Program-made: the position numbers and the translations under genes
The notes under the pieces: generated by a model
Told to the model about the DNA's origin: nothing
Databases searched by the model: none
What the model saw: the letters and a program-made list of their open reading frames with translations, nothing else
Shown here: piece after piece, positions 26,897-55,658 of the stretch
Layout of the letters: each line of letters starts with the position of its first letter
Position numbering within the stretch: position 1 is the first letter of the stretch
From: Lyophyllum atratum
Lineage: Eukaryota; Basidiomycota; Agaricomycetes; Agaricales; Lyophyllaceae
Direction of reading: 5' to 3'
Assembly (NCBI GenBank): GCA_014905825.1
Contig: JACGCN010000029.1
Span: 496,001-560,000 of the forward strand
DNA: 64,000 nt

Positions 26897-27968
26897 GAGT
26901 CCCTACCGATGTGGATTGTAGTATATATCGGGGTGATTAAGAGAGACGCTCGGCCTCCAGCACATTGTTGTGCAACATATGAACGCAAAGCAAAGCAAAG
27001 TGCTGCACATTTCACCGCTAAGAAAGCCATGATTTCTCAACTATTTCCGTCGCAGGTTGGGTAAGTCTGTTGTCGATGTTCTCAAGGCTTCGGACTTTCG
27101 TACTGTGGGGTAAAACCGACAACCTCGGACCTCGACCCCAGGTCGATAAATAAATGGACTCTTCCTAATAAAAAACAGTCTTCGGGCTTCAGTTGTTATG
27201 CGGTAAAGGTAGGAGCCCCATCTTATCTCGACATCTTCCTTCGGGCACTTCACTTCCGGAAGTCCGCTGTGATGATTATTTGTTCTGGAGGACATTCTGG
27301 GGAAACATTTGCTGGCATCATCCGGGACTTGATTCATCTTCGCGACATCAATCCCCCAGCGCTTTCCGGGGATTGGTAAAATTCAGTCCCACTCGAAGCT
27401 CTTCCACTATTCATGAAATAAATCATTTCTACGTAGCGGTGGGGCGACCAGAAAGGTTACAATCATTCAAACTTCAATCACAAAAAGAGCGTCAAGTATT
27501 CCATGATCACTTCGTGGGGTTTTGATCCCGGACTGTGGAAGGACATCGTCTTCCTTTGATACATGCATACAACTTCAGTGTACGTACAGGTTCGGGCATA
27601 GGTGCCTTTGTCCCCGTGGGCCCGTCGGCTGATCACCTGATAGCTGCGCTCATTGATGATTGGCTCCGTCGCCTACAGGCTATTCGTCTTAATCCAAAAC
27701 TATGGGACCTGACTCTTTAGAGATTCCATGTCTTCCAAGAAAAGGGCGAAAGCAAAAGATACCTTGCTACAGTAAACGACGAATGCGGGCTACAGCGGAT
27801 AGATGCGCAAGAGATAGCAGGCAGTGAGGGAAGTCGACGAGGCAATGCATCGGGTTAACAAAATACAAAAACGGTGCTAAATGATACAGAGAAGTGGTAT
27901 GTGTTGAGTTAATAATACAGAGTGAGACGTTGGTGGCAGTCTAGGGTTAGGCGGGCCGAATTCGGGGA
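26897..27968. other. intergenic region, no gene seen
   Basis: Short frames only. The stretch 27720-27960 upstream of the stop at 27969 looks like a 3' UTR on the minus strand. Confidence 0.45.
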
Positions 27969-28555
27969 TCAATCGATGTGGCGGCCGCATTGCAGGAGAA
28001 CCGCCGCGACGACGGACATCTCCAGGAGTCCAGCTTGGATGGCCTGGGGAGTCATCTCAAGCTTGACGGTGTTGTGACCTCGCGTAATCTTAGCAAACAG
28101 CTCGGCCGCGTTGAAAACAGCAGAATAAAGCTAGAAACCAGTGAATAAGAGAAGGGAGTGGTGATTGGGATAAACACTGACACAAATCGAGTCACCAGAG
28201 GGAACCCAAGTGTAATAGCGGCCTTTCGCCTCCATCAATCTGCGTCTAGTCGAAGGTTGAATGCTAAGCTTATGTTTAGTTACAAGAATCATTACGGGAC
28301 TTACGATCGGTCTGGAGAGAGACTCATCCACTGGCCTACGGCTTGGTTTTCGACTATTCCGCGGATTTCTACGACAGGGTGTTGCTTCCACTCGATGAAA
28401 GCTGCGACCTCCGAGTTGACGTTCTGGAAGATGGTATAACGTGGGTCCGAAGGATCGGTCATGACCTGGAAGTATTTGCGAGACTTGGGGCCAAGGACGA
28501 TGCAGTTCAGAATCGAGGTATCGAAGGAGTCGAAGGTAAAATTGACGATAGACAT
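27969..28555 (-). CDS. DUF6593-like protein, type 2 (paralogue of 21788-22514)
   Basis: Exons 28555-28305, 28245-28182 and 28130-27969 give 158 residues in phase. The domain starts almost at the N-terminus: FTFDSFDTSILNCIVLGPKS, VAAFIEWKQHPVVEIRG, QWMSLSPDRS, then EAKGRYYTWVPSGDSIC and a last exon ending VLLQCGRHID. It lacks the Pro-rich N-terminal extension of its paralogue 5.5 kb away but keeps identical lengths for exons 2 and 3 and equivalent splice phases. The second donor reads GTCAGT. No signal peptide or membrane span. Function unknown. Confidence 0.75.
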
Positions 28556-30162
28556 GTTTCGGGATTGAAGAGACGAGGCGAGAAGAGAAGGAAAGCGAAG
28601 ACGAGATCCTGAGTGCAGTTCATCCTTCATTCTCGAGGAGTTCATATAGCAGTTTCTTCGCGGAGGGTTGCTCGAGAAGAATGGAACCTGAAACGGTTGA
28701 GGCCCTTGGGGTCGAATGGGCGCAACAGCTAATTCGGTGGACCCAATGCTTGGTTGTGCGCAGAGACCTCGTGAACATTGCTACCGGATACGTTTATCTC
28801 ACATACGGGGGAAGGGTTGGACATATTCTGCGTCATTACCAGTATACGTGAGGGGTGTCGAAACTACAAAGAACAAAGCCAACCTTTTTGAGACGCTATT
28901 GAGAAGTAAACGATGTGAGAAGTCATCGCGCCTCTCGGGTTAAGGCACATCTTTGGGTGCGGCGTGCGTGATATAATAAACTTAACAGCGAGGGCGGCTC
29001 GTTCTATGCAATAAGTGCCCAGGTCCGATGTTCATTAACGTGGGGTGTACCGTTAGACAGCATGGGCTGTGCCGAGAAACCCGTTTCAGGGAGCATCTCG
29101 ATCGCCGACCTTGTCAACGTGCGTTGTAAGCTCAGTTGGCTGTGCCTAACTGGTTCTGAACACACGTCTTCGGGAGGCGAAGGCATCTTGGTGTAACACA
29201 TAGACACAGTACTTGCGAGGTCATGAGGCCAGAATCGGCATGAATTTAGAGGGACCTAACTGATTTGTCGGGATCATAACTTTGAACTGTGATCGGACCT
29301 TCGGACCTGTTTGTAGCCACTGCTATTGCTCTCTTAAATCCAAAAATGTAGATGGGGAGCGTAACAGAACTACGTTTGTCGAAGAAGTGACTCTCAGATT
29401 GCCGTTTCCATGTGATTCTTACGGCCTTGGGGCCGTGTGTCTCTAACAACCGAACGCGGGGTATCAGACGTTGGCACAGAAGATATCAGATATGGTTGCC
29501 TCGTCGAGGGCGCGCCCATTCTCTACGGCGCAAGGGCGTCCTGTGGTACCTGGCCGCCGGGAGGCTGACCTCAACTGAGACCGTGCGTCAACGATCATGA
29601 ATAAATTTGGGTCCGTGGGTTGACGAATTTCGGGGATATGGCCCTGGAAGTGCATCTATAAGTGTCTCCAGCCAGCGCCAGCCCGCCTCGTGATAAACGG
29701 AGAACAGGCGTTGCATTTCGGTCAAAAAGCCACGTGGAATCGCTATACATAGTCTATCCAGGCCCCTAGGATGGATATGTTGGTATAAAATCGCATGCAT
29801 GGTGCGAACAATCGAAAGGTGCGAATTCCTCGGTCTATATATATCTCACGAAGCCGCTTTCGTGTGCTACGCTTTAGCGTGAAGCGACCTGCATACGGAG
29901 GATGAATATCTAGATGTTGTACAAGCGTATGTCTGGGGCTTGTATCGATGTCGCGATGCGCGTAGACGGCGAAAGTTGTCGGGGTAATAAGCAAACTAGG
30001 GATTGTCGTACGTTCGATCCCTGTAACGGGCAATTGTCCCTCGATGATAGCGCCACGCCTGGCACTCTCCCTAGCTGTTCACCGCAAATCCCAAGCCTAG
30101 ATGACCTTCAAATTAAACCTCGGAAACACAGCGCAGATGATGAAGGATGTGTGCTGTCGCGA
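28556..30162. other. intergenic region, no convincing gene
   Basis: Overlapping short frames on both strands without recognisable domains. CTATATATATCTC at 29835-29847 is a simple AT stretch. Confidence 0.45.
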
Positions 30163-30682
30163 CTAGGGAGGAGTGGGACCTGGATGATGCTCCTTCCAAT
30201 ACAACAGATCGTTGCCAGGGCCGAGCCATGGAGGGCTTTCTATTTTCTCAGGTGCCGAGAAGTTCGGGGAGTGCTCTGCGGAGCAGGGTACAGCCTGTGT
30301 TGGGCACGCACTTCCTGTCTGGCCCAAAGCATTCAGGCCATCAGCCTTCGAGGTTGGACGTTAGCAAGGGGTGAGGCATACTTCAAGAATTTGCATACCT
30401 TATAATAACGACACGTGTGAGGTGGGTTCGGTGTCCCAGATATAGCGTATCTAAAAGGTGTCAGTATAGCCAGACTAGAAATAGTTTTGTCGCTTACACG
30501 CAGTCAAAGATGGAGTATGGGCCGTCGTAATTTGTCGCGTAGGTTGAGGTGATTAAACCACGGCCGTCTTGATCAGCATCGGGACAAGAGAAGGCGCACG
30601 ACGTGGGAGCAGCTGTAGTAAGAGACAGACCCCAGAGAAGGAGAAGGGCATAGTGTAAAGACAGGTAGTGCAGCCGGGTCAT
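30163..30682 (-). CDS. small secreted cysteine-containing protein, unknown
   Basis: Exons 30682-30498, 30450-30399 and 30318-30163 join in phase to 130 residues. The ATG at 30682 opens a signal peptide (hydrophobic YALLLLWGLSLTTAAP). The mature part has about seven cysteines: CAFSCPDADQDG, FDCVYAISG, HTCRYY, SACPTQAVPCSAEH. The CPD/DC/TC/CP spacing recalls small secreted proteins of wood- and litter-decay fungi that I cannot name. The junctions have GTAAGC/TTTAG and GTATGC/GCCAG signals. An alternative upstream in-frame ATG at 30715 is less likely because it puts polar residues before the hydrophobic core. Confidence 0.65.
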
Positions 30683-31111
30683 TGTGGTGGTTGGAGCGAA
30701 GCAAGTTTGAAGCAAGTGGGAGTGACGTGGGCAATCTATTTGTTATTCAACAGCTTGCCAAACATGGTGTCAATTTTCGGTCAACTCATCATGGTGCTCG
30801 CGTCCGTCATCTGCTCATCTCCTGGCTCGTTATGTCAGTCACTTCGTCAGTCGCTGCCAACTAAGAAAATACCATTTAGTAGCACGGGGTGCGCAGATAG
30901 GGGCAAGCCGATAAATATCTCTAAAAGATGTCCTAAAATCCATCGTCGTGTAAGATCATGATGACTTGTAAGTTGTACGCATGGACCGCATCAGTAGGCT
31001 TCATGGATAGGCCAACGGAACGCTCGATGTACTCAAAGAAGCTCATTAATACATGGGAAGCTAGACGAGTGTAAGGACTGCTCGTGGAAGAAGAAGAATA
31101 TCGAATAAGAA
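30683..31111. other. intergenic, no gene seen
   Basis: About 430 bp between the start of the secreted protein gene and the 3' end of gene A1; probably promoter and 3' UTR. Confidence 0.5.
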
Positions 31112-34048
31112 TCAATCATCGGAAAATATCGAGAATGGTCGGTTCAAAGGTGCCGGTGAATCACCGAAGCTCGAAACCCTCTTACGCGAATCATCACCAT
31201 GCCTGGGACTAGATGGGATTGCCGCCGCTGTCAATGGCCTGGGAGGCTCCCCGAATAGCAATGAATCTGCCCGTGTCCCGTAACCTGACGGCCCCGCTCC
31301 GAATTGGATGCGCGTCTCTGGTATATGAGCCATGCCAGCGTATATCTGGTACCCATGACTACCGAACTGCTCGTGAGTCCTATGATCGTGGTCCTCAGAT
31401 TTGAAATTGGTCATGGTGGGGATAGGGCTGAGGGGAACGAAACCTGGGGGTAGCTGGTTAACAATAACGGGGTCAGAGGGGTGTTCTGAGAATGTCGAGG
31501 GTTCATCACGATGAGAATGGGAGGAATACATCTCGGGGAGCGCTGTCGGCCTGTTAGCATGCTCAGGGGTCAGTAGGATGGGGTCGATGATAGTCCCTTC
31601 GGATGAGTTCGTCGGAGAATGTGACTGTCAAGCAACACCGTAAGTGGGAGAGGGGTGTGGGATTCGATAAACAACATACTGGAGGTTCGACATCTATGCC
31701 AGGAACTGTGACGTTGGATATGGACCTATGCACCGTGCTTCGACGTTGGGATGTTGGAGGACTTGGACGGAGGCCTGAAGCGGTTGGCTGACGATATATG
31801 TTCGCTGCCGAGGATGGGCGTGACGGCGGTTGAACCGAAGGTCGACTCCGGTCCGATCGATGGTCCTTCTTCCCAGCTCGGTAGATATACGATCCAGGTA
31901 TACTCGGCTGGGGGTTGGATTTCGGGATTACCTGGGACGAATCAATAGGCTGACGAGGTCCTCCACTGACTCGAGGAGAGCGAACCCTGGGAGAGCTCGG
32001 GATCGGATTAACCATCATATGAACCTAAGATCAGAGAAAGAGAAGGCGTAAATTAAAAGCTTTGGAAATAGAAGGAATATAAGGAGAAACCAGGTAAGGC
32101 AAAGAAGAAACTCAGCGTACTTCGGTCCTGTCCCGCAGCTCACCATGAGTCGACCGCGTTGGTTCCCCGACGGTTCTTGTGAGACCTTGTCCACCCGGTT
32201 GCGGAGTAGGAGTTCCCACAATATCCGAGTTGGCAGAACGCCAGTCTTCAACGATTTTCTCCGGCGGAGTGAGCTGCCTTCTCCGCTGGTAGTCGCGGGA
32301 GTCTTCGCGCGCGTTATAGGAAATTATAGGGCGTTGACTACCACCCGTGTCGCGATATCGTTCCTCCCGATTTGCGTCCCTCTGGGCTTTGGGTGGGCTG
32401 ACGATATCGTACTGCGAGATCCTCGTCGATACTCGAGAAACAGTCGATAATGCTGGGGTATCGCGACCATCCTTTCTACGAACCCTATAAACATCGTCAT
32501 AGTCCGGGGAGGGGTCGGTATGAGTTCTCGCGGCAGGTTTGTAGGCATGGCTGTGAGTTACCGGTGCAGAGTTGTCGCGGCTCTGCCCTCTTTGCCTTCG
32601 CTCAACACCTTTACCGTTGCCATTGTCGCGCTCGTCCGCATTTGAAGGTATCCTGGTCGCTTTCGCAGCAATATTCGCTTGATCAGTGAAGTCCACTGGC
32701 ATGCTTAGCTCGTGAGGAGGTGGCAAGGAGATGTGTGCATCGGGACCAAGCGTTGGAATATACCCCTCTGGCGGGACTGAACGACGAGATCGGTACGAGC
32801 GTCGAGAAGGCGCGATACTCGGGGAACGAGTCTCAGAGCGTGGTGAGTGGGGAGGACTCTGTGTACGCGCCCTAGACTGGCGTCGGCGATCAGCGACAAT
32901 GGAGATGTCTTCAGGAGAATCAGATGACTCGTGTGCATGGCCATCTCGCGGAGATGAAGATGCGCGTAATGGTATCGGTGCTGCTACTGGGAGAGGCGGA
33001 GCGTCGTTTCCAGCATCGGGCGGACTTCTCTTCCTGCTCGCTGCCCGAGTGCTCGACTTCTCTCGTGTACGATCCCTAATCGAAAGAGCGTTAGTATAGC
33101 ACTACCATGGATACAGAATGTTCGGGATGTACCTCGAGGACGGAATAGACGGCTCAGCTACTGACGCCGTAGATTTCGTACGCGTAGGTGGTGATGAGGC
33201 TCTCCTGATTGGTTCATCCGCATCGTCTTCGCCATCCGTCACGTCACCTTCATTTATTTGCTCACTCGCCCACGCATCCCATCGCCCTCTTTCTAAGCCC
33301 AGTTTCCAACCTTCCCGCCTTCCCTCTTCTCTCGCTACTTCAACAGCACGCTGCAGTACCAATTTCCGTATCTGCTCTCTGTCCTTCACGCCCCTCTCCT
33401 CGGCTTCGGCGCGAGCACGTTCAACGTCATCAACGATGGTCTGGGCGCGAAGGATTTCTATTAGAGGAGGCGGGTTAGATATTATGTTGCTTAAAGGGGT
33501 AGATATCTACCTCTCTGAGCGATGTCGAGTTGAAGCTTGTACAAAGCCAATTCTGATGTAACACGCACTAGCTCAGCCTCCGCCCGCAGCTGCGCTTCCT
33601 TGATGCTCCTGACACGGGAAATTACTGCTTCGTGATCCTTCATCAACTCCCTCTCAGCCGCATCAGCTCTCGCCGTTTCGTGTGCAAGAAGCCGTAGAAG
33701 GGTGTTTGCCCCGCTACTATGAGAGCGAGACCGACTGCGCAGGGCAGGCTCTTGTCGCTCCTCACCTCGAAGTCGGGACAGAAAGTGAGCATAAGCCTGG
33801 CGATCGGATTTCGGCCGGCTCTGGCCCTTCGTATGGTAGTCGTTATCTCCAGGATGACCTGGAACAAACGGATCGGGGGTCCGCGATGGTAGAGGTGCAG
33901 TCGGCGGGAATGGAGGTGTAGCTGGGCGACGGCGAGGTCTGCTTGGCAGGGCGTCGCGAGACGACGAGGACGAATGCGGGGAAGTATCTCCTGTTCGTAG
34001 TGGCTGAGACGTAGGTTGGATAGGAAAGTAAGACCTAGACGCGGTCAT
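31112..34048 (-). CDS. gene A1: large disordered protein with central coiled coil
   Basis: The ATG at 34048 opens a Ser/Pro/Arg-rich N-terminus (about 90 residues). A long predicted coiled coil follows: NTLLRLLAHETARADAAERE, AQLRAEAELVRVTSELALYK, EILRAQTIVDDVERARAEAE, and KLVLQRAVEVAREEGRREGW ending GLERGRWDAWASE. The C-terminal half is a long basic/Ser-rich disordered region containing PPEGYIPTLGPDAHISLPPP and PGGQGLTRTVG. It ends FGDSPAPLNRPFSIFSDD at 31112. Several short introns connect the pieces, for example between residues QR and EILRAQ around 33460-33510. The coiled coil plus tail pattern is shared by a basidiomycete family of unknown function that I know only by general appearance. 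This is the only copy with all reading-frame pieces intact. Confidence 0.7.
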
Positions 34049-34090
34049 GAGTCCCTGCGTTGCCTATGGGAACAGTTGCGAATGAATCGC

Positions 34091-34751
34091 TCACCCTTCA
34101 GCGTGACGATTTATCCTATCCATGAGAGTTGCCTGGACCGTGAAGTGGGGGTGAAGTTCTTTAGAGCGAATGTAAGCTGCTTTTGAGGATAGAGGATCAT
34201 AAAAGGCAAGGATCAGTATCAACTCGAGCGTACTTACGGGACTCCTAAACGCCTCGCGGAACGTTCATGGCCGATCTCGAAAGGCAAAAGTGACCGTGTC
34301 CTATTCCGCCGCTTGGGATCCTTCCTCATGCAGTCTATCTCGAGTCTTGTTAGTTCAAGATACAATGGCAGAGGCGTGTATGTGACGCTGCCGTGATACA
34401 CGTGTTGTGCGCGTTGCAAGGCGCGTGTCCAGTGGCGTGTGATAGACATAGAGATCTATACAATTGGATAAGATAAGAACACAGGCACCCCAACGAGCTT
34501 GTTCATCTCCCTTCCTAAGAAGCATCAGGGAAGCTTGAAGGGCTGCAACAATGCGGTTGTAGGGCGGTGCGGGCAGGTCGCACAAGGCGAAGGGGAGCGA
34601 GAAGTCGTGGCGCACCCCGTAGAAGCCGCAACATGTGGCAAAAGAATCTAGCTGTCCATATCGTTCAGAACGAGCAACCGTGTGGAATGAGTCCAATGCA
34701 CATACGAGCATTCCATTCATTAATGACCACATCATCCCCTCCTATCTGCAT
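34091..34751 (-). CDS. gene B1: short conserved protein, unknown
   Basis: The ATG at 34751 (MQIGGDDVVINEWNA) splices (GTATGT donor at 34705, CTAG acceptor at 34648) to an exon reading CCGFYGVRHDFSLPFALCDL and KGDEQARWGACVLILSNC. A second open segment in another frame, at 34449-34237, reads YTPLPLYLELTRLEIDC and RSLLPFEIGHERSARRLG. A third, at 34179-34091, reads YIRSKELHPHFTVQATLMD and ends in TGA. The peptide character is convincing and the segment is nearly identical in the second copy, but I could not make the second and third junctions close in phase. I do not recognise the family. It lies 42 bp upstream of gene A1 on the same strand. Confidence 0.5.
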
Positions 34752-34982
34752 AGATCTCGATCGAATAACGTTGTTAGTGGAAGCTTCTCTTCGTAAATTG
34801 GTTAACGCACGAGAGCCCGAGCGTCCGACGAAGCGCCGCCAGGATCCCGCATGCGCAGGATTAGCTGCAGGGGTGTCAAGTATGTGATCAAACCGATCCT
34901 GAAGAATTTAAGGACTAAACTGATCAGGTGCCTTCTCGAAGGCGTCAAAATAGAGACAAATGGGTACATCTGTCATCATAGT

Positions 34983-36580
34983 TCAGAGATATACCTCCGC
35001 CGTCAGCTTGTGACCCCCCGAAGGTTGTCGAGATACGATGTCGTAGACGGTAAGTTGGCAAAAGCCTTGAAGGGAAAGCTGTGAAGACAAAAAGCTTGAC
35101 TGAAATGCAAATTTTAGACTCCGGGTCAACTGTTTGTTGATTTTCTTTTTCGTGCTACCTAATCTCTGGTGATCATTCCTTCGCGACGGCTGTCTTCCTG
35201 TCGTACTGCAATTGCTCTTCATACGTAGGAATGGGGGAGGGGGAGGGGGACGGACAGGAGGGGGGCGCCGTTGCCTAGGAGACGGGATATCCATATCAAC
35301 CCAGCAGCAGCCGTCGGCCGCCCGTCTCCATCTCTTCGCTGGAGCAGGTAGTCCTTGCACAGGCTTCGGGGGAAACGATGTCACCACCGCCAGTTCGCAT
35401 CTACGACAAATCCGTTCCCCAGGCCCGCAGATAACAACCCATACTATCGCGCCCCCCGTGACCCGCACAACAGCAAGTCCTACATGTCCTCCCCGCACAC
35501 CTTTCCCGCCCATCCTACGACCGACCTCCCCTCCACCCGGCCCCCTACCCACCCCGACTGCAAGCAACCATTCACTTCGCCACACCAAGCCTCGCCCTTC
35601 CACAACCTCTCGCCCATCACCTCCCCCATCCAGAACGGCCATCCGACCTGGACCATGAACTTTATGATGATTAAAAGCTCTTCGATCGCCCGCGTCTTCC
35701 GCTCCAAGTCGCTGCACCACGCTTCCCTGCCCCTCCCTCCCCTCCCCGGCCCCCCATCGTGCGGCTGCTCGGATCCGCTGCGGCTGCGAGCTCGGTGTCT
35801 GGGAACCGCGTCGAGATGGTCTCTTACTATGGCACCCCGGAGAGGGAGAGGGCCTTCGGGATCGGGAGACCCGGCGCCGGCTCAGTCTCACGAGGCATAC
35901 GTCGTTCTCTACGCCTACGCATGGGCATACACATAGAGGGAAGTCGGCCCTGTCGGCGCGTCGGCGGCTACGTATAGCACTTCGCGCTCGGACGGGGCGT
36001 GGGGTGGATCAGCGAGCGCGGGAGAGAGCCCGTTTAGTGAGCTCGCGAGGTCGTCGCAGCGCCGGCTGGAGGTATAAGGCCGAGGTCGGTTGCACCGGCG
36101 GGGGTATGCGCGGGATGTGAGGAGTCGGAGTCGGGGCCGGGAGGGGAGGGGGAGGAGAATGAGGAGCTAATTGGGTGTGTGGCGGAGGGGTGGGGTTGGC
36201 ATGGGCATGGGCAGCAGACGAGGGGGGCAAGGGGGCGGATTATGGGTATGGGAGTGGAGTTGGGAAGGACGAGTTGGGGAGGAGTATGAGCCGCCGAGCG
36301 TGGATGGGCCGAGCTGGATGGGAGTATGGCTTCGCTGAGCGACGAGGAAGACCACCAAGGAGATGTGTGAGGGACGCGTAGAGAGGGATGGGTTGAAGGT
36401 GCCGGTTGCGGAGGTTAACGTTGAAGGGTGGGGCTCGTTGTAGGTCATTGTCTACTGCATGATGTACGTTCTCAAAGCTTTCGTCCGTCTCTTGTAGATG
36501 TTTTCGCTCGATTCCATTTGATATGAGTGCATTAGCTGTATCTGTACAAACTAGAAAAATATCCTTATCCGAGTTGTGCA
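34983..36580 (-). other. block D1: GC-rich, probably spliced gene, unresolved
   Basis: Conserved in both large copies. On the minus strand it contains open pieces that look protein-like but do not join simply: GTFNPSLSTRPSHISLVVFL with SHTPIQLGPSTLGGSY (around 36300-36450), then CDDLASSLNGLSPALADPP and EREVLYVAADAPTGPTSLYV (around 35930-36060), and a helical DLERKTRAIEELLIIIKFMV (around 35640-35710). Long overlapping frames occur on the other strand because of the skewed composition. I infer one minus-strand gene upstream of B1 but cannot give exon borders. Confidence 0.35.
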
Positions 36581-36787
36581 TTCCAGTGATGATGGATGAG
36601 ACTACGCTTCCAGCGTAAGTATTCCCGTAAAGTCCTATTAAGTACATGTTTTGTGTCTATACTAAAAGATATGCTTGTTCGACTTGTACGTTCCGGTAAT
36701 GATAGATGGTATGATGTTTTGAGCGTAAATATTCACGTAAACGTTGCTGCAGCTGACGTCTCGGCAAGTTGGAGGTCTGGGTACACC

Positions 36788-37209
36788 TCAGCGGTACCAG
36801 TCGGAGTCGTCTACGTAAGCCGTAGCGAACTGGGCCTCCAGACCTAAGATAAGTGTGTCAAAGCATGCCTAGAGGCGTGTCGTAGCCACATACCATGCTC
36901 CTTAATCAGCTTCTCGACGGTATCTTCCTTTTCACCCCTTTGGTATTGCTCGAGTCGCCGAGCATCCCAACCGATATCGCGGAACCTTTGGCGACTGAAG
37001 TGGGCCCTTCGTGTGGGGATAAGGTATTGGTTGTCGTCTTCGCTCTGAGTAGGATACCTGACAACGAGCAACCTCGCGTGGTTGTGCTCGACAACGTGCG
37101 CGAGGAGTGAGAGGGCATTCTCGTCACTGGCGTCAGGGCCGCCGAGTTCCTGCTGAGAATACCATCGTCGAGCCTCTGCTAGAGTGATGAGGAATCCTGC
37201 TACGCGCAT
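36788..37209 (-). CDS. gene C1: compact conserved protein of 123 residues
   Basis: Two exons (37209-36894 and 36843-36788) with GTATGT...CTTAG borders. The ATG at 37209 opens RVAGFLITLAEARRWYSQQE. Later segments are ENALSLLAHVVEHNHARLL, VVRYPTQSEDDNQYLIPTRR, HFSRQRFRDIGWDARRLEQY, EKEDTVEKLIKEHG and, after the intron, LEAQFATAYVDDSDWYR. It is a compact, charged, probably cytosolic protein with mixed helices and strands; no catalytic motif is evident and I do not recognise the family. Three copies in the window (also 44729-45151 and 45570-45991) all keep an open frame, in contrast to the decayed neighbours, which suggests C is the part under selection. Confidence 0.7.
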
Positions 37210-37319
37210 GATTTGAGTGGATGGGATGTGTGTATCTGTGTGCGATCACCGTGGTTTAACTTTAAGTAACCAGCCAGCTTTTGTCACGGTCCAGCGGGGA
37301 TTCATTTAGTGAGCACATG

Positions 37320-38035
37320 ACTTGGTCTGTGTAACCACCATGTCTGCTGAACACGCACACAATGGCTATTTCATTCCTGGAAATTGTATTCTTTTGTTCT
37401 ACTTCAGGCCTGCTTGCGCAGGACGCTTCTTCGTGGCCATATTGGGGGATTGAAGCAAATATGTTGATCTGTGTCGCCATCATCACCCGTGGCTGAGCCA
37501 TATCATTCCTGTGATTTGTATCTTTTTGTTCCACTTCAGGCATGTATGCGCATAACGCATCTGCTCGGCCATATCGCGGGGTAGAAACAATTACGTCGAT
37601 CTGTGTCGTCACTATCACCCGTGTCCGAGCACAATGGCCATATCATTCCTGGAATTTGTATCTTTTTGTTCTACTTCAGGCCTACTTGCGCAGGACGCTT
37701 CTTCGTGGCCATATTTGGGGATAGAAGCAAATATGTTGATGTGTGTCGCCACCAAGTCGCCGCCACCACCCGTGTCTGAGCACACACACAATGGCCATAT
37801 CATTCTTGTAATTTATATCTTTTTGTTCTACTTCAGGCCTACTTGCGCAGGACGCTTCTTCGTGGCCATGATTGGGGGATAGAAGCAAATATGTTGATCT
37901 GTGTCGCCACCATCACGCGTGGCTGAGCACACACACAATCACATCATTCCTGTAATTTGTATCTTTTTGTTCCACTTCAGGCATGTATGCGCACAACGCA
38001 TCTGCGTGGCCATATTCTGGAGTAGAAGCAAACTT
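37320..38035. repeat. tandem repeat array, five monomers of about 130-160 bp
   Basis: The anchor CTTTTTGTTC(T/C)ACTTCAGGC recurs near 37391, 37522, 37661, 37818 and 37961. Each monomer continues through a GCGCA-centred stretch, CGTGGCCATATT, GATAGAAGCAAATATGTTGAT and CACCCGTG. Two monomer types alternate irregularly: type 1 (GGCCTACTTGCGCAGGACGC) and type 2 (GGCATGTATGCGCACAACGC), in the order 1-2-1-1-2. Open frames across the array repeat the same peptide only because the DNA repeats. Confidence 0.9.
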
Positions 38036-38148
38036 TTTTACAACATGCCAATTGTTCAGTATCCTCAAACACAGCCACTCAACGAGTGCTTTAAGACGCT
38101 ACGGGGAATGGGTTAACCTGCAGTCTACTTGAGTAAACCTTCTTCCTC

Positions 38149-38918
38149 ATGCCAGTAACTGCTAATCCTCTCCCGTACCGCACCACCGTCCCCGACTGGG
38201 TTCGAGATCGATGGACCGATACGTTCTCTGTCAAGCTCAGGTATGAGAACGATATGTACGGAATCATAAACACTTTTCTGCAACTCGCCTTCCCGGCCGC
38301 CAATCGATTCATTGTCGTACCGCAAGGTCTCTTGCGACAACAGGTCACTTCCGGTGGTTCGTCGTCCTCAGGATCGGATCATTCATATGACGCCATGGAC
38401 GGCAGCCACGTCGCTTCAAGGAGTGCGCCAGGTGGGTTCTCATTATCTACTTCTCATTGTGCTCGCCTGACTGTCCAGTACACAGGACATGAGGATGATC
38501 TCCTGATACCTGATTTCCTGATCTACAAATCATTCGACAGTGATAGTGCAGCTGGGTCGGACATCATCATCGCGGTCGTGGAGGTCAAGAAGGAATTAAC
38601 TACTAGGATTGAGGTATCCCCACCATCATTCAGACCATTATAAGGCAAGCTGAACATTCTCTTCAGGGATTGAATCAATTTAGAAATTACCTCCGGCGAG
38701 TCGGAGACCACGGCAGGGTTGATGATATACGGCGTCAGGACCGGCCAACGCCGATCGGTCTATTCATTCAAGGGGAAAAAACTTTCGTTCAAACGCTGCA
38801 GTCGCATTCGAAAGGAGCCATCATAAGTGTAGATCCGAGTCAGCTCAAGGACTACGACAGCGGGGGTGGAGAGCTAATCTGGAATACACTCTCAGCGCAC
38901 GCGCAGGCCTGGTGTTGA
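38149..38918 (+). CDS. putative PD-(D/E)XK nuclease-like protein
   Basis: Exons 38149-38431, 38486-38613 and 38667-38918 join in phase to 220 residues. The core shows the ordered motifs of the RecB-like restriction-endonuclease fold: an early helix with Glu (KLRYENDMYGIINTFLQ), DLLIPDFLIY (Pro103-Asp104), IIIAVVEVKKE (Glu127-x-Lys129), then GLNQFRNYL, whose Q-x-x-x-Y (Gln141 to Tyr145) matches the extra motif of RecB/Cas4-type nucleases. The spacing of about 22 residues between PD and ExK is typical. A Ser/Gly/His-rich insert (around residues 65-90) interrupts the N-terminal part. Catalysis is inferred from motifs alone; a DNA-binding but inactive role is possible. The gene is on the opposite strand to its neighbours and lies between the two large duplicated segments. 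Alternative: an unrelated protein with a chance motif. Confidence 0.6.
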
Positions 38919-39343
38919 TATACGACCGTTGACATACATAGGTATATAGCAAGTAACATCGTCGTGTATTTATTAAGTTCCGCAGGCCTAAGGAACAAGG
39001 CAACATATTACCAGGAGGTTGGAGAGCCCTGACCTCAACGTCACCTTCAATCCGCTTTTTTTGAGCTTGATATCTAGCGCGCGCAAGATACATATGGATG
39101 ACTCAGGATGAGCTGGCGAAGCAAATCAAGACACCTCGTGCAGTATTGCAGGATTTTAATGCAGTAGTGTTCTCAAGGGCGGTCAAATTCAGAACTGGCG
39201 AAGGTAGGATGAAGAGATTCGGCCACAACACCTGCGCCGACGAAATGCAAGCCAAGTGCACAACACATAGTGTGGCCGCCCGATTTGAAGGAACTCGATC
39301 GATAAGATAGTGTACATATCTAGTGGAGATATATCTTAGGATC
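38919..39343. other. spacer before duplicated segment 2
   Basis: About 425 bp between the nuclease-like gene and the start of homology to segment 1. No gene seen. Confidence 0.5.
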
Positions 39344-41954
39344 AAAGCTCGAAGCCCTCTTGCGCGAATCATCACCATGCCTGGGACTAGATAGTACTAC
39401 TGCCGCTGTCGATAGCTTGGGAGGCTCCCCGAATACATTGAATCCGCCCGTGTCCCGCAGCCTGACGGCCCCGCTCCGAATTGGATGCGCGTCTCTGGTA
39501 TATGAGCCATACCAGCGTATATCTGGTACCCATGACCACCAAACGGCTCAAGAGCTCTATGGTCGTGGTTCTCGGATTTGAAATTGGTCATAGTAGGGAT
39601 AGGGCTGAGGGGAACGAAACCTGGGGGTAGCTGGTTAACAATAACGGGGTCAGGGGGGTGTTCTGAGAATGTCGACGGTTCATCATGATGAGAATGGGAG
39701 GAATACATCTCGGGGAGCGCTGTCGGCCTGTTAGCATGCTCAGGGGTCAGTAGGATGGGGTCGATAATAGTTCCTTCGGACGAGTTCGTGGGAGAATGTG
39801 ACTGTCAAGCAATATCGTAAGTGAAAGAGGAGTGTGGGATTCGACAAACAACATACTGGAGGCTCAACATCTATGCCAGGAACTGTGACGTTAGAGATGG
39901 ATCTATGCATCGTGTTTCGACGTTGGGATGTTGGAGGACTTGGACGGAGGCCTGAAGCAGTTGGCTGACGATATATGTTCGCTGCCGAAGATGGACGTGA
40001 CGGCGGTTGAACGGAAGGTCGGCTCCGGTCCGATCGATGGTCCTTCTTCCCAGCTCGGTAGATATACGATCCAGGTATACTCGTCCGAGGGTTGGATTTC
40101 GGAATTACCTGCGACGAATCGATAGGCTGACGAGGTCCTCCACTGACTCGAGGAGAGCGAACCCTCGGAGAGCTCGGGATCGGATCAACCATCATAGGAA
40201 CCTAAAATTATAGAGAGAGAGGGCGTAAATCAGAAGCCTTGGAAACAGAAGGAATATAGGCAGAAAACAGTTAAGGCAAAGAAGAAACTCAGCGTACTTC
40301 GGTCCTGTCCCGCAATAGGGCGTTGACTACCACCCGTGTCGCGATATCGTTCCTCCCGATTTGGGTCCCTCTGGGCTTTGGGTGGGCTAACTATATCGTA
40401 CTGCGAGATCCTTGTGGATACTCGAGAAACAGTCGATAATGCTGGGGTATCTCGACCATCCTTTCTACGAACCCTATAAACATCGTCATAGTCCGGGGAG
40501 GGGTCGGTATGAGTTCTCGCGGCAGGTTTGTAGGTATGGCTGTGGGTTACCGGTGCAGAGTTGTCGCGGCTCTGCGCTCTTTGCCTTCGCCCAACACCTT
40601 TACCCTTGCCATTGTCGCCCTCGTCCGCGTTTGAAGGTGTCCTGGTCGCTTTCGCAGCACTATTCGCTTGATCAGTGAAGTCCACTGGCATGCTTAGCTC
40701 GTGAGGAGGTGGCAAGGAGATGTGTGCATCGGGACCAAGCGTTGGAATATACCCCTCTGGCGGGACTGATCGACGAGATCGGTACGAGCGTCGAGAAGGC
40801 GCGATACTCGGGGAACGAGTTTCAGAGCGTGGTGAGTGGGGAGGACTCTGTGTACGCGCCCTAGACTGGCGTTGGCGATCAGGGACAATGGAGATGTCTT
40901 CAGGAGAATCCGATGACTCGTGTGCATGGCCATCTGGCGGAGATGCGGATCCACGTAATGGAATCGGTGCTGCTATTGGGAGAGGCGGAGCGTCGTTTCC
41001 AACGTCCGGCGGACTTCTCTTCCTGCTCGCTCCCCGAGTGTTCGATCTCTCTCGTGTACGATCCCTAATCGAAAGAGCGTCAGTAAAGCACTGTCATGGG
41101 TACAGGATGTTCGGGATGTACCTCGAGGACGGAACGGACGGCTCAGCTACTGAGGCTGAAGATTTCGTACCCGTAGGTGGTGATGGGGCTCTCCTGATTG
41201 GTTCATCCGCATCGTCTTCGCCATCCGTCACGTCATCTTCATTTATTTGCTCACTGGCCCACGCATCCCATCGCCCTCTTTCTAAACCCAGTTTCCAACC
41301 TTCCCGCCTTCCCTCTTCTCTCGCTACTTCAACAGCACGCTGCAGTACCAATTTCCGTATCTGCTCTCTGTCCTTCACGCCCCTCTCCTCGGCCTCGGCG
41401 CGAGCACGTTCAACGTCATCAACGATGGTCTGGGCGCGAAGAATTTCTATTAGAGGAGGCGGGTTAGATATTATGTTGACTAAAGGGGTAGATATCTACC
41501 TCTCTGAGCGATGTCGAGCTGAAGCTTGTACTGCTTCGTGATCCTTCATCAACTCCCTCTCAGCCGCGTCAGCTCTCGCCGTTTCATGTGCAAGAAGCCG
41601 TAGAAGGGTGTTTGCCCCGCTACTATTAGAGCGAGACCGACTGCGCGGGGCAGGCTCTTGTCGCTCCTCACCTCGAAGTCGGGACAGAAAGTGAGCATAA
41701 GCCTGGCGATCGGACTTCGGCCGGCTCTGGCCCTTCGTATGGTAGTCGTTATCTCCAGGATGCGCTGGAACAAACGGATCGGGGGTCCGCGATGGTAGAG
41801 GTGCAGTCGGCGGGAATGGAGGTGTAGCTGGGCGACGGCGAGGTCTGCTCGGCAGGGCGTCGCGAGATGACGAGGACGAAGGCGGGGAAGTATCTCCTGT
41901 TCGTACTGGCTGAGACGTAGGTTGGATAGGAAAGTAAGACCTAGACTCGGTCAT
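39344..41954 (-). pseudogene. A2: decayed copy of gene A1
   Basis: The ATG at 41954 and the N-terminal exon are kept, but four independent lesions separate it from A1. (1) An 83-bp deletion at about 41531 removes the part of the coiled coil after KDHEAV and shifts the frame. (2) A 188-bp deletion at about 40315 (A1 bases 32138-32325) removes the region from NAREDSRDYQ to the DRTEV end and shifts the frame. (3) A net 1-base loss at about 39435 shifts the last exon. (4) The natural C-terminus (after KRVSSF) is missing because homology begins inside the exon. A2 cannot make the A1 protein; truncated products remain possible. Confidence 0.85.
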
Positions 41955-41996
41955 GAGTCCCTGCGTTGCCGATGGGAACAGTTGCGAATGAATCGC

Positions 41997-42656
41997 TCAC
42001 CCTTCAGCGTGACGATCTATCCTATCCATGAGAGTTGCCTGGACCATGAAGTGGGGGTGAAGTTCTTTGCAGCGAATGTAAGCTGCTTTTGAGGATAGAG
42101 GATCATAAAAGGCAAGGATCAGTATCAACTCGAGTGTACTTACGGGACTCCTAAACGCCTCGCGGAACGTTCATGGCCGATCTCGAAAGGCAAAAGTGGC
42201 CGTGTCCTATTCCGCCGCTTGGGATCCTTCCTCATGCAGTCTATCTCGAGTCTTGTTAGTTCAAGATACAATGGCAGAGGCGTGTATGTGACGCTGCCGT
42301 GATACACGTGTTGTGCGCGTTGCAAGGCGCGTGTCCAGTGGCGTGTGATAGACATAGAGATCTATACAATTGGATAAGATAAGAACACAGGCACCCCAAC
42401 GAGCTTGTTCATCTCCCTTCCTAAGAAGTATCAGGGAAGCTTGAAGGGCTGCAACAATGCGGTTGTAGGGCGGTGCGGGCAGGTCGCACAACGCGAAGGG
42501 GAGCGAGAAGTCGTGGCGCACCCCGTAGAAGCCGCAACATGTGGCAAAAGAATCTAGCTGTCCATATCGTTCAGAACGAGCAACCGTTTGGAATGAGTCC
42601 AATGCACATACGAGCATTCCATTCATTAAGACCACATCATCCCCTCCTATCCGCAT
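41997..42656 (-). pseudogene. B2: frameshifted copy of gene B1
   Basis: Nearly identical to B1; the segment around 42140-42355 differs from B1 by one residue in 71 (Ser to Pro in RTRSLLPF). However, one base is missing at about 42630 (CATTAAGACC against CATTAATGACC in B1). This breaks the first exon right after MRIGGDDVV. A later ATG could still give an N-terminally altered product, so it may not be fully dead. Confidence 0.6.
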
Positions 42657-42889
42657 AGAGTTTGATCGAATAACGTTGTTAGTGGAAGCTTCTCTTCGTA
42701 AATTGGTTAACGCACGAGAGCCCGAGCGTCCGACGAAGCGCCGCCAGGATCCCGCATGCGCAGGATTGGCTGCAGGGTGTCAGTAATCAAACCGATCCTG
42801 AAGAATTTTAAGGACTAAACTGATCAGGTGCCTTCTCGAAGGCGTCAAAATAGAGACAAATGCCAATGGGTACATCTGTCATCATAGTT

Positions 42890-44500
42890 CACAGATATAC
42901 CTCCGCCTCCACCTTGTGACCTGTTGAGGATTGTCGAGGAATGATGCCGTAGACGGTAAGTTGGCAAAAGCCTTGAAAGGAACGTCGTGGAGAAAAACTT
43001 GGCTGATTTGCAAATTTTAGACTGCGGGTCAATTGTCTGTTGATTTTCTTTTTCGTTCCTTTGACCTGACCTCTATGATCATTCCTTCTCGACAGCCCTT
43101 GTCTTCCTGTTGTAATGCATACGCTCTTCATACGTGAGGAACGGGGGACGGAGAGGGGCACTGAGAGGAGGGCGCCTCCGTTGCCCAGGAGACGGAATGC
43201 CCATACCCAGCAGCAGCCGCCGTCGCCGCCCTTGTCCATCCCTTCGCCGGAGCAGGTCGTCCTTGCACAGGCTCCGGGGGGGATGATGTCGCCACCACCA
43301 GTCTGATCTACGGCGAATCCGTTCCGCAGGCCCGTAGACAACAACCCATACCACCGGGCCCTCCCCGAGGACCCCGACCCGCATGACACCAAGCTTTATA
43401 TGCCTCCTCGCACACCTCTCCCGCCCATCCTACGACCGACCTCCCCTCCACCCTGCCCCCGACCCATCCCGACCGCAAGCCGCCGTTCACTTCGCCACAC
43501 CAAGCTTCGCCCTTCCACAACCTCTCGTCCATCACATGCATCACATCCCCCATTCAGAACGTCCATCCGACCTCGACCATGAACTTTATGATGATTAAAA
43601 GCTCTTTGATCGTCCGCATCTTCCGCTCCAAGTCGCTGCACCACGCTTCCCTGCCTCTCCCTCCCCTCCCCGGCCCCCCATCGTGCGGCTGCTCGGATCC
43701 GCTGCGGCTGCGAGCTCGGTGTCTGGGAACCGCGTCGAGATGGTCCCTTACTATGGCACCCCGGAGAGGGAGAGGGGCTTCGGGATCGGGAGACCCGGCG
43801 CTGGCTCAGTCTCACGAGGCATACGTCGTTCTCTACGCCTACGCATGGGCATACACATAGAGGGAAGTCGGCCCTGTCGGCGGCGTCGGCGGCTACGTAT
43901 AGCACTTAGCGCTCGGACGGGGCGGGGGTGGATCAGCGGGCGTAGGAGAGAGCTCGTCTAGTAAGCTCGTGAGGTCATCGCAGCTCCGGCTGCAGCAGGC
44001 GCGCGGTATAAGGCCGAGGCGGGGTTGAACCGGCGGGGGTATGTGCGGGATGTGAGGAGTCGGAATCGGGGCCGGGAGGGGAGGGGGGGAGCAGGAGGAG
44101 TAGGAGGAGCTCATTGGGGGTGGGACGGAGGGATGGGGTTGGTATGGGCATGGGCAGCAGACGAGGGAGGCAAGGGGGCGGGTTCTGGGTATGGGGTTGG
44201 GGAGGACGAGTTGGGGAGGAGTATGAGCCGCCGAGCGTGGATGGGCCGAGCTGGATGGGAGTATGGCTTCGCTGAGCGACGAGGAAGACCACCAAGGAGA
44301 TGTGTGAGGGACGCGTAGAGAGGGATGGGTTGAAGGTGCCGGTTGCGGAGGTTGAACGTTGAAGGGTGGGGTCGTTGTAGGTCATTGTCTACTGCATGAT
44401 GTACGTTCTCAAAGCTTTCGTCCGTCTCTTGTAGATGTTTTCGCTCGATTCCATTTGATATGAGTGCATTAGCTGTATCTGTACAAACTAGAAAAATATC
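42890..44500 (-). other. block D2: second copy of the unresolved GC-rich block
   Basis: Counterpart of 34983-36580. Protein-like pieces recur (GTFNPSLSTRPSHISLVVFL, CDDLTSLLDELSPTPADPP), but after ADPP copy 2 has lost one base in a G-run at about 43922. The frame therefore ends PSAKCYT instead of continuing into the EREVLYVAADA segment of copy 1. Several short gains and losses occur near 44080-44210. If copy 1 is a gene, this copy is probably broken. Confidence 0.4.
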
Positions 44501-44728
44501 CTTATCCGAGTTGTACATTCCAGTGATGATGGATGAGACTACGCTTCCAGCGTAAGTATTCCCGTAAAATCCTATTAAGTACATGTTTTGTGTCTATACC
44601 AACTAAAAGATATGCTTGTTCGACTTGTACGTTCCGGTAATGATAGATGGTATGATGTTTTGAGCGTAAATATTCACGTAAACGTTGCTGCAGCTGACGT
44701 CTCGGCAAGTTGGAGGTCTGGGTACACC

Positions 44729-45151
44729 TCAGCGGTACCAGTCGGAGTCGTCTACGTAAGCCGTAGCGAACTGGGCCTCCAGACCTAAGATAAGTGTGTC
44801 AAAGCATGGCCTAGAGGCGTGTCGTAGCCACATACCATGCTCCTTAATCAGCTTCTCGACGGTATCTTCCTTTTCGACCCTTTGGTATTGCTCGAGTCGC
44901 CGAGCATCCCAACCGATATCGCGGAACCTTTGGCGACTGAAGTGGGCCCTTCGTGTGGGGATAAGGTATTGGTTGTCGTCTTCGCTCTGAGTAGGATACC
45001 TGACAACGAGCAACCTCGCGTGGTTGTGCCTGACAACCCGCTTGAGGAGTGAGAGGGCATTCTCGTCACTGGCGTCAGGGTGGCCGAGTTCCTGCTGAGA
45101 ATACCATCGTCGAGCCTCTGCTAGAGTGATGAGGAATCCTGCTACGCGCAT
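44729..45151 (-). CDS. gene C2: second copy of the compact conserved protein
   Basis: Same two-exon layout as C1 and the same GTATGT intron. One extra base within the intron makes the unspliced frame run through to the normal end YVDDSDWYR, so both spliced and unspliced reading is possible. Compared with C1 it has Gly to His in QELGH, Gly to Val in YQRVEKED, and a tight cluster changing LLAHVVEH to LLKRVVRH. Everything else in exon 1 is identical, so the copy is recent or homogenised. Function unknown, as for C1. Confidence 0.65.
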   Translation of the reverse strand: MRVAGFLITLAEARRWYSQQELGHPDASDENALSLLKRVVRHNHARLLVVRYPTQSEDDNQYLIPTRRAHFSRQRFRDIGWDARRLEQYQRVEKEDTVEKLIKEHGMWLRHASRPCFDTLILGLEAQFATAYVDDSDWYR

Positions 45152-45569
45152 GATTTGAGTGGATGGGATGTGTGTATCTGTGTGCGATGACGCTGGTTTG
45201 AGTAACAGCCAGCTTTGTCTGGCGGAGATTTATTTGGTGACTCACTCGCCCACGCATCCCAACGCCCTCTATCTAGACCCAATCTCCAGCCTTCCCGCCT
45301 TCCTCCTTCTCTCGCTACTTCAGAGGCATCACCAATATCCTGATCCAAGTTGTACATTCCAGTGATGATGGATGAGACTACGCTTCCAGCGTAAGTATTC
45401 CCGTAAAGTCCTGTTAAGTACATGTTTTGTGTCTATACAAAGTAAAAGATATGCTTGTGCGACTTGTACGTTCCGGTGATGATAGATGATATGATGTTCT
45501 GAGCGTAAATATTCACGTAAAAACGTTGCTGCAGCTGACATCTCGGCAATTTGGAGGTCCGGGTACACC

Positions 45570-45991
45570 TCAGCGGTACCAGTTGGAGTCGTCTACGTAA
45601 GCCGTAGCGAACTGGGCCTCCAGACCTAAGATAAGTGTGTCAAAGCATGCCTAGAGGCGTGCCGTAGCCACATACCATGCTCCTTAATCAGCTTCTCGAC
45701 GGTATCTTCCTTTTCGACCCTTTGGTATTGCTCGAGTCGCCGAGCATCCCAACCGATATCGCGGAACCTTTGGCGACTGAAGTGGGCCCTTCGTGTGGGG
45801 ATAAGGTATTGGTTGTCGTCTTCGCTCTGAGTAGGATACCTCACAACGAGCAACCTCGCGTGGTTGTGCTCGACAACGTGCGCGAGGAGTGAGAGGGCAT
45901 TCTCGTCACTGGCGTCAGGGTGGCCGAGTTCCTGCTGAGAATACCATCGTCGAGCCTCTGCTAGAGTGATGAGGAATCCTGCTACGCGCAT
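45570..45991 (-). CDS. gene C3: third copy of the compact conserved protein
   Basis: Two exons with the same splice signals as C1; the frame is intact from the ATG at 45991 to the TGA at 45570. It agrees with C2 in QELGH and YQRVEKED but with C1 in LLAHVVEH, and has Asp to Asn near the end (DDSNWYR). It is the only intact reading frame in the third module copy. Confidence 0.65.
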
Positions 45992-46061
45992 GATTTGAGT
46001 GGATGGGATGTGTGTATCTGTGTGCGATGACGATGGTCTAAGCAACAGCCAGCTTTGTCCG

Positions 46062-46400
46062 GCGGAGATTCATTTAGTGACTCACTCGCCCACGCATCCC
46101 ATCGCCTTCTTTCTAAGCCCAACCTCCAGCCTTCCAGCCTTCCTTCTTCTCTCGCTATTTCAAAGGCATTACGGGGAGCAAACGAATCGGCGGTCCGCGA
46201 TGGCAGGGGTGCAGTCGGCGGGAAGGGAGGTGTAGCTGGGCGACGGCGAGTCTGCTTGGGAGAGCGTCGCGAGATGATGAGGACGAATGGGGGAAGTATC
46301 TCCTGTTCGTACTGGCTGAGACGTAGGTTCGATAGAAAAGTAAGACCTACACTCGGTCATGGGTCCCTGCTGCTCCTATGGGGACAGTTGCGAATTTAGA
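46062..46400 (-). pseudogene. A3: remnant of gene A
   Basis: The N-terminal A exon (SYFSIEPTSQPVRTGDTSP) is joined directly to a fragment of the coiled-coil exon (EGWRLGLE..RWDAWASE-like) with the intervening part deleted and frames broken. No functional product is expected. Confidence 0.75.
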
Positions 46401-47061
46401 AATTGGTGAACGCACGAGAGCCCGCGCGTCCGATGAAGTGCCGCCAGGATCCCGCGTGCGCTGAATTAGCTGAACGGTTTACAGTTAAAACAAGGCGCTC
46501 CTGAAGGATTCAAAGACCAATCTGATCCAATCTGATCAGATGCCTCCTCCAAGGCGTCAAAATCGCACAAATGGGTACATCTGTCATCATAGTTCACGGA
46601 TAAATTCCCATCTCCAATTTGTGACCCCTTGAGGATGGTCGAGGAATGATGCCGAAGACGGTACATAGTAGTTGGCGAAAGCCTTGAAGGCTTGAAGAGA
46701 AGTTCCCAGAGAAAAAAGCTTGGCTGATTTTCGAATTTTAGACTCCGGGTCAATATTCTGTTGATTTGCGTTTTTGTTCCTTCACCAGTCCTTCACGTCG
46801 GTTCACGACAGACCTTGTCTTTCTGTCGTGATGCATTTACTCTTCATGCGATTTTTTCTCTGTCTTAGTAGTTCATTTGAAAACCCTGAACACGAACCGT
46901 AGCGGAGGCGGCTTGCTGATCAAGACTGGGTCAAATTCGTCAATTTGTCGGATCTCAACTCTCTTTCGCCGCAGGCGAAGTCAGGCCAAGTTTTGAATGA
47001 TACAGCATCGGAGGCTCGGATTAAATGGCACTTCGAAACACGGAAGAACATTGACAACAGC
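46401..47061. other. end of third module copy and AA9 upstream region
   Basis: Up to about 46860 the sequence follows the region upstream of gene B and the start of block D with many changes (CGCACGAGAGCCC..., TACATCTGTCATCATAGTTCA). After that it is unique DNA leading to the AA9 promoter. No gene. Confidence 0.6.
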
Positions 47062-54342: not shown

Positions 54343-55658
54343 ATGTCCACCACACCCCGGCTTTTTCAGCCCATCAGAATTGGCGATATAACGCTTCAGC
54401 ACCGACTTGTCCTAGCCCCATTGACGCGGTGGAAAGCAACACAGCTGACTCAGGTCCCGATTATCCCGCTCATGAAAGAATACTATTCTCAGCGGAGTAG
54501 TGTTCCCGGTAGTTTGTTGATCGCCGAGAACGCTTTCGTCTCCTCAGAGGCAGGAGGCGCCTTTAACACCCCTGGAATATGGAATGATGAGCAAGCTCAC
54601 GTATGGCGGGAGGTGCGCTTTCTCGAACGAATTCTCCGTCAGAAGTTGTAACCTACTTCGCCTTAGATCACGGATAGAGTGCACGCCAATGGATCATACA
54701 TATTGCTCCAGATTCGAGCCCTTGGGCGCACAGCAGATCCGGCAGCTTTGGCTGCGGTAGATTCTTCCTTTTCTTTCGTTGCTCCATCTCCCATACCGCT
54801 TTCCTCTCGACCAACCGATGTACCAAGGGAGCTGAGTGTCAACGAAATCCACGCTTATGTACAGTGGTTCGGTCAAGCCGCGAAAAACGCTGTCGATAAA
54901 GCTGGCTTTGACGGGGTAGAGATCCACGGCGCGAACGGATTTCTCGTGGATCAATTCATTCAGGACGTCAGCAATCAGAGGGCCGATTGTTACGGAGGCA
55001 GTATAGAGGCCAGGAGCAGATTCGGACTAGAGATAGTCGAAGCAGTTGCCAATGCAGTGGGCGGAAAGAGGACCGCAATCCGCCTTAGTCCGTGGAGCCC
55101 CTATCTAGGTATACTTGCTGCCGCATCTCACTGTGCATTCACAACCTCATGCGCTGCTTCCCACAGATATGGGTATGAATGACCCCATTCCTCAGTTCTC
55201 TCACTTTGTATCTACGCTGAGGCAGAAGCACCCGGATTTGGCGTATCTCCATGTCATCGAGCCACGGATAAACGGCGACATGGATCTGACATCAACTGCC
55301 CGTGGATCGAACGACTTCATTCGTGAAATATGGAAACCGCTACCTCTAATCGTCGCGGGCGGATACAGCCGAGAGACTGCTTTGAAGGCTGCTGAAGAGA
55401 ACGGGGAACTTGTTGCGTTCGGTAGGATGTATATATCCAATGTAAGAATACACTTCTGCTGTACCCGGATGCCGATTTATATCTGGTTAGCCCGACCTTC
55501 CCCGTCGTATAAAGGAAAACATTCCATTGACGCCGTACGATCGCAAGAGGTTTTATATCCCGGGTTACGAAGTGGGAACGGAGATGGGCTACATTGATTA
55601 TCCTTTCGCGACTGATGCCGGAGGAAGGAAGAACGGTAGTATAGATTTCCACCCTTGA
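54343..55658 (+). CDS. old yellow enzyme family NADH:flavin oxidoreductase
   Basis: An FMN-dependent ene-reductase-type protein. Exons 54343-54612, 54667-55108, 55167-55441 and 55491-55658 join in phase to 384 residues. Family motifs run in order: LFQPIRIGDITLQHRLVLAP, PLTRWKA, GAFNTPGIWNDEQ, LLQIRALGRTADP, FDGVEIHGANGFLVDQFIQD, YGGSIEARSRFGLEIV, RLSPW, PLIVAGGYSRETA, LVAFGRMYISN and a PDLPRRI segment. His177 and Asn180, which bind the substrate carbonyl, are present. The following proton-donor tyrosine of the HxxNxY motif is Phe182 here, and the Trp expected in the QLW segment is Arg107. There is no signal peptide, so it is probably cytosolic. Start chosen at the first ATG in good context directly before the family's N-terminus. 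Confidence 0.9.

Follow-up and report, generated by a model that had tools for sequence, protein, structure and literature searches.

Lyophyllum atratum is a saprotrophic burnt-ground mushroom. The window considered here is a stretch of 64,000 nucleotides from its contig C74 (C74:496001-560000), and the assembly searched comprises 64,759,978 bases in 151 contigs. Position numbers are those of the window unless a contig is named. Between about 31 and 47 kb, the window contains a set of repeated elements designated A, B, D and C, which the preliminary description had presented as a four-part gene module, A-B-D-C, occurring in one intact, one decaying and one shattered copy. The tandem segmental duplication is real, with two long direct copies of at least 90% identity in one region. 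The four-part module is not supported: A is one gene, B is DNA upstream of A that is not demonstrated to be a gene, and D is what remains of a different, broken gene. The gene-name prefix of this genome, FPV67DRAFT, appears in no paper in a literature search, and the locus could still have been published.

Genes and repeats at the locus

The repeats were found by blastn self-comparison of the window. Units 1 (31167-37312, with a counterpart at C57:1113574-1119724) and 2 (39345-45240) are direct repeats whose long matches cover 971 columns at 92.3% identity, 1217 at 95.5% and 3751 at 92.6%, so that the units differ by 5-8% over these matches; region by region, their identity ranges from 86.5 to 100%. 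Matches of this length and identity far exceed what chance would give, and the repeat coordinates given originally were correct to within 1-10 bases. A further tandem repeat of about 840 bases (44495-45332 and 45334-46172, 94.9% identity) is the source of C3. The rearranged pieces of a third copy reported up to 46860 are A-derived fragments of a unit 3 remnant (46069-46850), located at 46069-46163, 46175-46395 and 46400-46850. They correspond to A exon 2 (86-88% identity), A exon 1 (90%) and DNA upstream of A (75-76%), and unit 3 tracks units 1 and 2 up to about 35236, where D starts in those units.

Gene A is intact in unit 1 (31112-34123, minus strand). Its GT-AG splice model encodes 896 amino acids in six exons (34123-34095, 34034-33511, 33457-33133, 33075-32121, 32024-31680 and 31624-31112), with a first intron of 60 bases and four others of 53-96 bases. 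The start is consistent with the proteins P0002-P0004, the first of which is from L. atratum; an alternative start at 34048 was rejected, as the homologues carry the additional short first exon. Of the 7990 candidates scored in a protein search, 78 are homologues at E <= 0.001, and the close relatives, labelled 'hypothetical' or 'uncharacterized', cover 89-100% of the query. A Pfam scan of four A exon frames returned nothing above the cut-off. Judged by these homologues, A is a conserved fungal gene. The two A1 alleles, on C74 and C57, differ by 64 synonymous and 60 nonsynonymous changes, with a ratio of nonsynonymous to synonymous rates (dN/dS) of 0.30 and no in-frame stops, and A1 would be the working, presumably expressed, A gene.

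Its counterpart in unit 2, A2 (39345-42029, minus strand, the upper coordinate being transferred from unit 1 via the unit offset), is a pseudogene. The four lesions originally attributed to it are all present: the 3' end is missing at the duplication edge, because the duplication starts inside A, and there are deletions of 1, 188 and 83 bases, the second of which appears as 36 + 152 in the aligner output. A2 retains introns, has a broken frame and coexists with its intact parent A1, as an unprocessed pseudogene does. The C57 copy of A2 shows every one of these lesions plus two further small ones. Since they are present in both versions, the lesions would be older than the split of the C74 and C57 unit-2 versions.

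The DNA upstream of A (34124-35236) holds B (34240-34741). When the two candidate frames of B were used as query, a single protein among 135 candidates reached E <= 1: P0080, a predicted L. atratum protein of 108 amino acids encoded on C57. That search gave no homologue outside L. atratum. The C57 allele of B carries a 4-base insertion at 34702, and the P0080 prediction skips that stretch, in our reading of the model by means of an intron. The one-base loss proposed for B in copy 2 does exist, at 34724; what does not stand is the status of the element, whose only match is a prediction from the same species. On these comparisons, B is not demonstrated to be a gene.

D derives from the 3' part of an unrelated gene. 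D1 (35238-36434, plus strand) matches residues 405-805 of an 807-codon exon that is open at C104:4386-6806, and has 5 stops; D2 (43151-44359, plus strand) is the same fragment in unit 2, with 10 stops in the match. The longest match of the C57 copy has 7 stops, and the counterpart of the parent exon on C77 has one TAG. D1, D2 and the C57 copy all carry gaps of 16 bases (7 + 9 columns) and 4 bases relative to five paralogues, so D was apparently dead before units 1 and 2 separated. Instead of the one-base loss formerly ascribed to D in copy 2, 14 gaps separate the units within 35231-36440. A D gene on the minus strand was likewise rejected, since the match lies on the plus strand of another gene and contains stops and shared gaps. 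A Pfam search with the 807-residue parent exon gave no match at E 0.1. An EH-domain (PF12763) identity, guessed from the look of the parent sequence, was also discarded, with none of the 17 EH matches listed for the genome lying on C104 or C77.

C is the only complete gene in the duplicated block. C1 (36788-37209), C2 (44729-45151) and C3 (45570-45991) lie on the minus strand and, as previously noticed, are open in all three copies, being best read as two exons encoding 123 amino acids each, with an intron of 50 bases in C1 and C3 and 51 in C2. The intron site of C1 is kept in the open paralogues, and C2 is identical, letter for letter, to the public L. atratum protein P0001.

The spacer between units 1 and 2 has features of its own. 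Five degenerate tandem copies with a spacing of 132-157 bases occupy 37358-38055, followed by a gene-like plus-strand stretch (38149-38926) with three paralogous places at 69-72% identity, two on C100 and one on C75; a Pfam scan of its first exon gave no match.

A second version on contig C57

A second version of the locus is found on contig C57. Nine neighbouring pieces covering C57:1077001-1167000 are collinear with window positions 2526-55659 in ten long blocks of 83-99% identity. C57 holds an additional 7.7 kb at window position 25500, and past 55659 only scattered or inverted matches occur in the 90 kb of C57 compared. The stretch 27711-37715, which includes unit 1, is 93.8% identical to C57. 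The C57 version comprises unit 1, a spacer enlarged by an insert of 5091 bases, and the part of unit 2 that ends at 42126, resuming at 46112. The alignments flanking this junction overlap by 2 bases, so that 3987 bases (42127-46113, with 2 bases ambiguous at the junction) are missing, namely D2, C2, C3 and part of the A2 upstream DNA. Thus, the C74 version has C1, C2 and C3, and the C57 version C1 only.

The insert (C57:1120959-1126049) is an element with long terminal repeats (LTRs) of 320 bases that are 99.7% alike, and one long open frame; we take it to be of the copia type. It sits at window position 38723, within the counterpart of the gene-like stretch 38149-38926, and is flanked by TTGAT on both sides.

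According to this collinearity, C57 is probably the other nuclear haplotype of the locus. As a control, 14 matches to the Rpb1 domain were grouped into three loci, two of which are paired across contigs (C60/C70 and C64/C121). Together, the collinearity and this control make it probable that, for many loci, both nuclear haplotypes are present in the assembly. Since it seems to do so, artefactual joins are conceivable, such as two haplotypes of one locus placed in tandem or a C gene wrongly repeated, and the C2-C3 array is present on C74 only, with no second witness on C57. However, an artefact of the tandem units is unlikely: on C57, too, unit 1 is followed by the spacer and by the initial 2.8 kb of unit 2, and both the left edge and the lesions of A2 coincide. 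Furthermore, the unit-2 stretch 38719-42126 is 99.0% identical to C57:1126050-1129453, against the 5-8% difference between units. Hence, we hold an assembly artefact to be very improbable. The other long in-order blocks between C74 and C57 reach 83-97%, compared with the 99.0% of this stretch.

Outside the duplicated region, an older direct repeat (6174-7708 and 8952-10529) has 65% identity over 1607 columns. Pfam matches correspond to parts of a glycosyl hydrolase family 31 protein (12396-15457), an F-box-like protein (17536-19131) and an exon of an NADH:flavin oxidoreductase (54679-55182). The gene starting at 47121 presumably resembles a polysaccharide monooxygenase; the single exon frame of it that was scanned has no Pfam match above the cut-off.

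The C family and the survival of its copies

At least 13 C loci are found in the assembly, a count that leaves out one further row consisting of a 40-base piece. They are C1, C2, C3 and the C57 copy, three loci on C104 (at 14432, 9725 and 7500), four on C77 (37955, 32987, 30753 and 287683), and one each on C62 and C64. The contigs C104/C77 and C62/C64 look like haplotype pairs, so there would be fewer than 13 loci per nucleus. Nine of the 13 are open over the full length (123-125 codons), one of these nine lacking a start codon. Weak matches on C72 (822-1118) and C141 (L031:4693-5211), with 30-31% identity, represent distant relatives. Of the 13 candidates in the protein search, a single one reached E <= 0.01, and it comes from L. 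atratum; no homologue from outside the species appeared among these candidates at that threshold. Pfam searches at E 10 with C, one paralogue exon and the C141 relative returned nothing above the cut-off, and a fold search gave no match at E <= 0.001, starting from a weak model with a mean pLDDT of 62. A subtelomeric origin was considered and dropped, as telomere repeats never occurred three or more in a row in the five loci scanned (L012, L025, L026, L027 and L029).

When a single dN/dS is fitted to the nine open copies, the value is 0.57, different from 1 (P = 0.0007), and by this measure the C family is under purifying selection overall. The open frame of C2 proves little by itself. Units 1 and 2 are separated by 32 gap events (counted after joining two neighbouring entries and leaving out one that lies beyond the unit), of which about 1.9 would be expected in the 372 coding bases of C; none is seen, and a hand calculation gives P of about 0.14 for this outcome. 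Neither are the C copies protected, as C57 lacks C2 and C3. Most likely, C encodes a small, presumably expressed, protein, with selection keeping the family and not its single copies.

These results bear on the idea that a four-gene module was duplicated and that everything except C decayed because C alone was useful. The open frames of all three C copies and the purifying selection on the family agree with it. However, A2 was truncated at the duplication edge, D was dead beforehand, the single search with B gave no homologue from beyond L. atratum, C2 and C3 are absent from C57, and the chance of a gap-free C2 is not small. We therefore consider this idea quite unlikely. The order originally proposed, duplication followed by loss, was right, but the loss of everything besides C would mostly not be later decay, because A2 was cut by the duplication edge, D was already dead and B is not demonstrated to be a gene. 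The survival of C alone is largely explained by C being the only complete gene that was copied.

The stem of the C1-C3 clade has a dN/dS of 6.1, which differs from 1 with twice the log-likelihood difference (2dlnL) at 6.79 and P = 0.009 (0 of 100 simulations as high), and from one ratio for all branches with P = 5e-5. A burst of change on the branch leading to this locus is therefore possible. It could be read as neofunctionalisation, in which C changed fast under positive selection after moving beside A and a locus-specific role favoured extra copies. Against this, the P value becomes about 0.04 upon correction, because four stems were tried, and 0.024 once the start-lost copy is dropped, in a data set of only nine sequences of 123-125 codons. 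The three other stems have values of 0.73, 4.2 and 0.30; the 4.2 of the second deep stem, even though not significantly different from 1 (2dlnL of 2.24; 6.25 against one ratio), may signal a general bias in deep branches. Moreover, exchange between copies violates the tree model, and dN/dS within the clade is 0.62. Neofunctionalisation of C is thus unlikely, if somewhat less so than the module idea. A bolder proposal would see in C a gene of conflict or recognition between nuclei, for which one might expect a species-restricted, fast-changing family that moves together with a piece of a former neighbouring gene, an amino-acid burst beside A, and three copies against one in the two nuclei of one mycelium; we regard it as very unlikely.

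Proposed history and known systems

The relationship among the copies is a mosaic. In a three-way comparison of unit 1, unit 2 and the C57 unit 1, the 408 two-state sites form 161 runs, whereas 10,000 shuffles give a mean of 267.3 runs (standard deviation 9.3, lowest value 231). The odd one out is unit 1 in 32900-33199 (28 of 29 sites) and unit 2 in 35000-35299 (43 of 52), so that the closest relative changes in patches along the alignment, as it does upon interlocus gene conversion. At six sites within 37088-37101, C1 and C3 agree with each other and differ from C2 and the C57 copy, a pattern suggestive of a copied patch. At one residue all five paralogues agree with C2, and at another three of the five agree with C1 and C3, which does not single out one direction of copying. 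Exchange between units or alleles likely caused the mosaic, and such exchange weakens any dating by divergence.

An origin of D and C is suggested by the edges of the similarity. Unit 1 resembles the loci on C104, C77, C62 and C64, in pieces, from 35239-35241 (in D) to 37207-37246 (in C), and the similarity of unit 3 stops within about 10 bases of the point where the paralogy of D starts. The simplest reading is that D and C were inserted beside A after unit 3 had split off, the block being duplicated afterwards.

The reading that we judge very probable is that of a segmental duplication, both haplotypes of the genome being apparently represented in the assembly, with a history of six steps whose order, like the mechanism of exchange, we infer from the observed sequence relations. 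A cassette of D (the 3' part of an unrelated gene) and C would have been copied from a C77/C104-like locus to just upstream of A, unit 3 being a remnant without the cassette. The block from inside the last exon of A to just past C would then have been duplicated in direct orientation, with A2 endless from the start and D already dead. Subsequently, A2 would have gained its deletions before the C74 and C57 unit-2 copies separated, and C2 plus a scrap of unit 3 would have been duplicated again, giving rise to C3. A single deletion of 3987 bases, with 2-base microhomology, would have removed D2, C2 and C3 from the C57 version, and exchange between units and alleles would have produced the mosaic.

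Several observations weigh against this history. At C62, C64 and C77:285-287 kb, D and C are in opposite relative orientation, and because their orientation differs between loci the cassette would not be a fixed unit. The clustering of runs may partly reflect uneven constraint, which by itself leaves the identity of the odd copy unchanged. Not all of the 13 C loci are open, four being broken, and one of the three Rpb1-type control loci (C64) has no partner contig. Finally, dN/dS is low in the codons of A2: 0.27 between A2 and A1, and 0.37 between the A2 of C74 and that of C57, the latter on 19 differences (9 synonymous and 10 nonsynonymous). A2 would therefore have broken late or been partly overwritten by A1 sequence.

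The locus represents a clean case in which it was mostly the positions of the breakpoints, and not later selection, that determined which gene survived a duplication, and it allows a comparison between two probable nuclear haplotypes in a mushroom. In addition, it brings to light a small gene family, with 13 loci in this assembly, named by neither Pfam nor the protein search used. Neither the breakpoint case nor the C family overturns established knowledge.

The event itself is of an ordinary known kind, unusually legible. The unprocessed pseudogene arising by incomplete duplication is a textbook category, and A2, without its 3' end at the duplication edge and with its introns retained, resembles it with no notable difference. 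Human segmental duplications show interlocus gene conversion, as described in PMC3790853 and PMC4467073, and share with this locus long direct copies above 90% identity and mosaic similarity. Unlike them, the present case is a mushroom locus with two copies and a remnant on two allelic-looking contigs, and conversion is deduced from three sequences only. Similarly, two nuclear haplotypes differ in a dikaryotic fungus, according to PMC12129025, just as the two versions of this locus differ by three C copies against one, although here it is a single locus read from sequence, with haplotypes assigned by collinearity.

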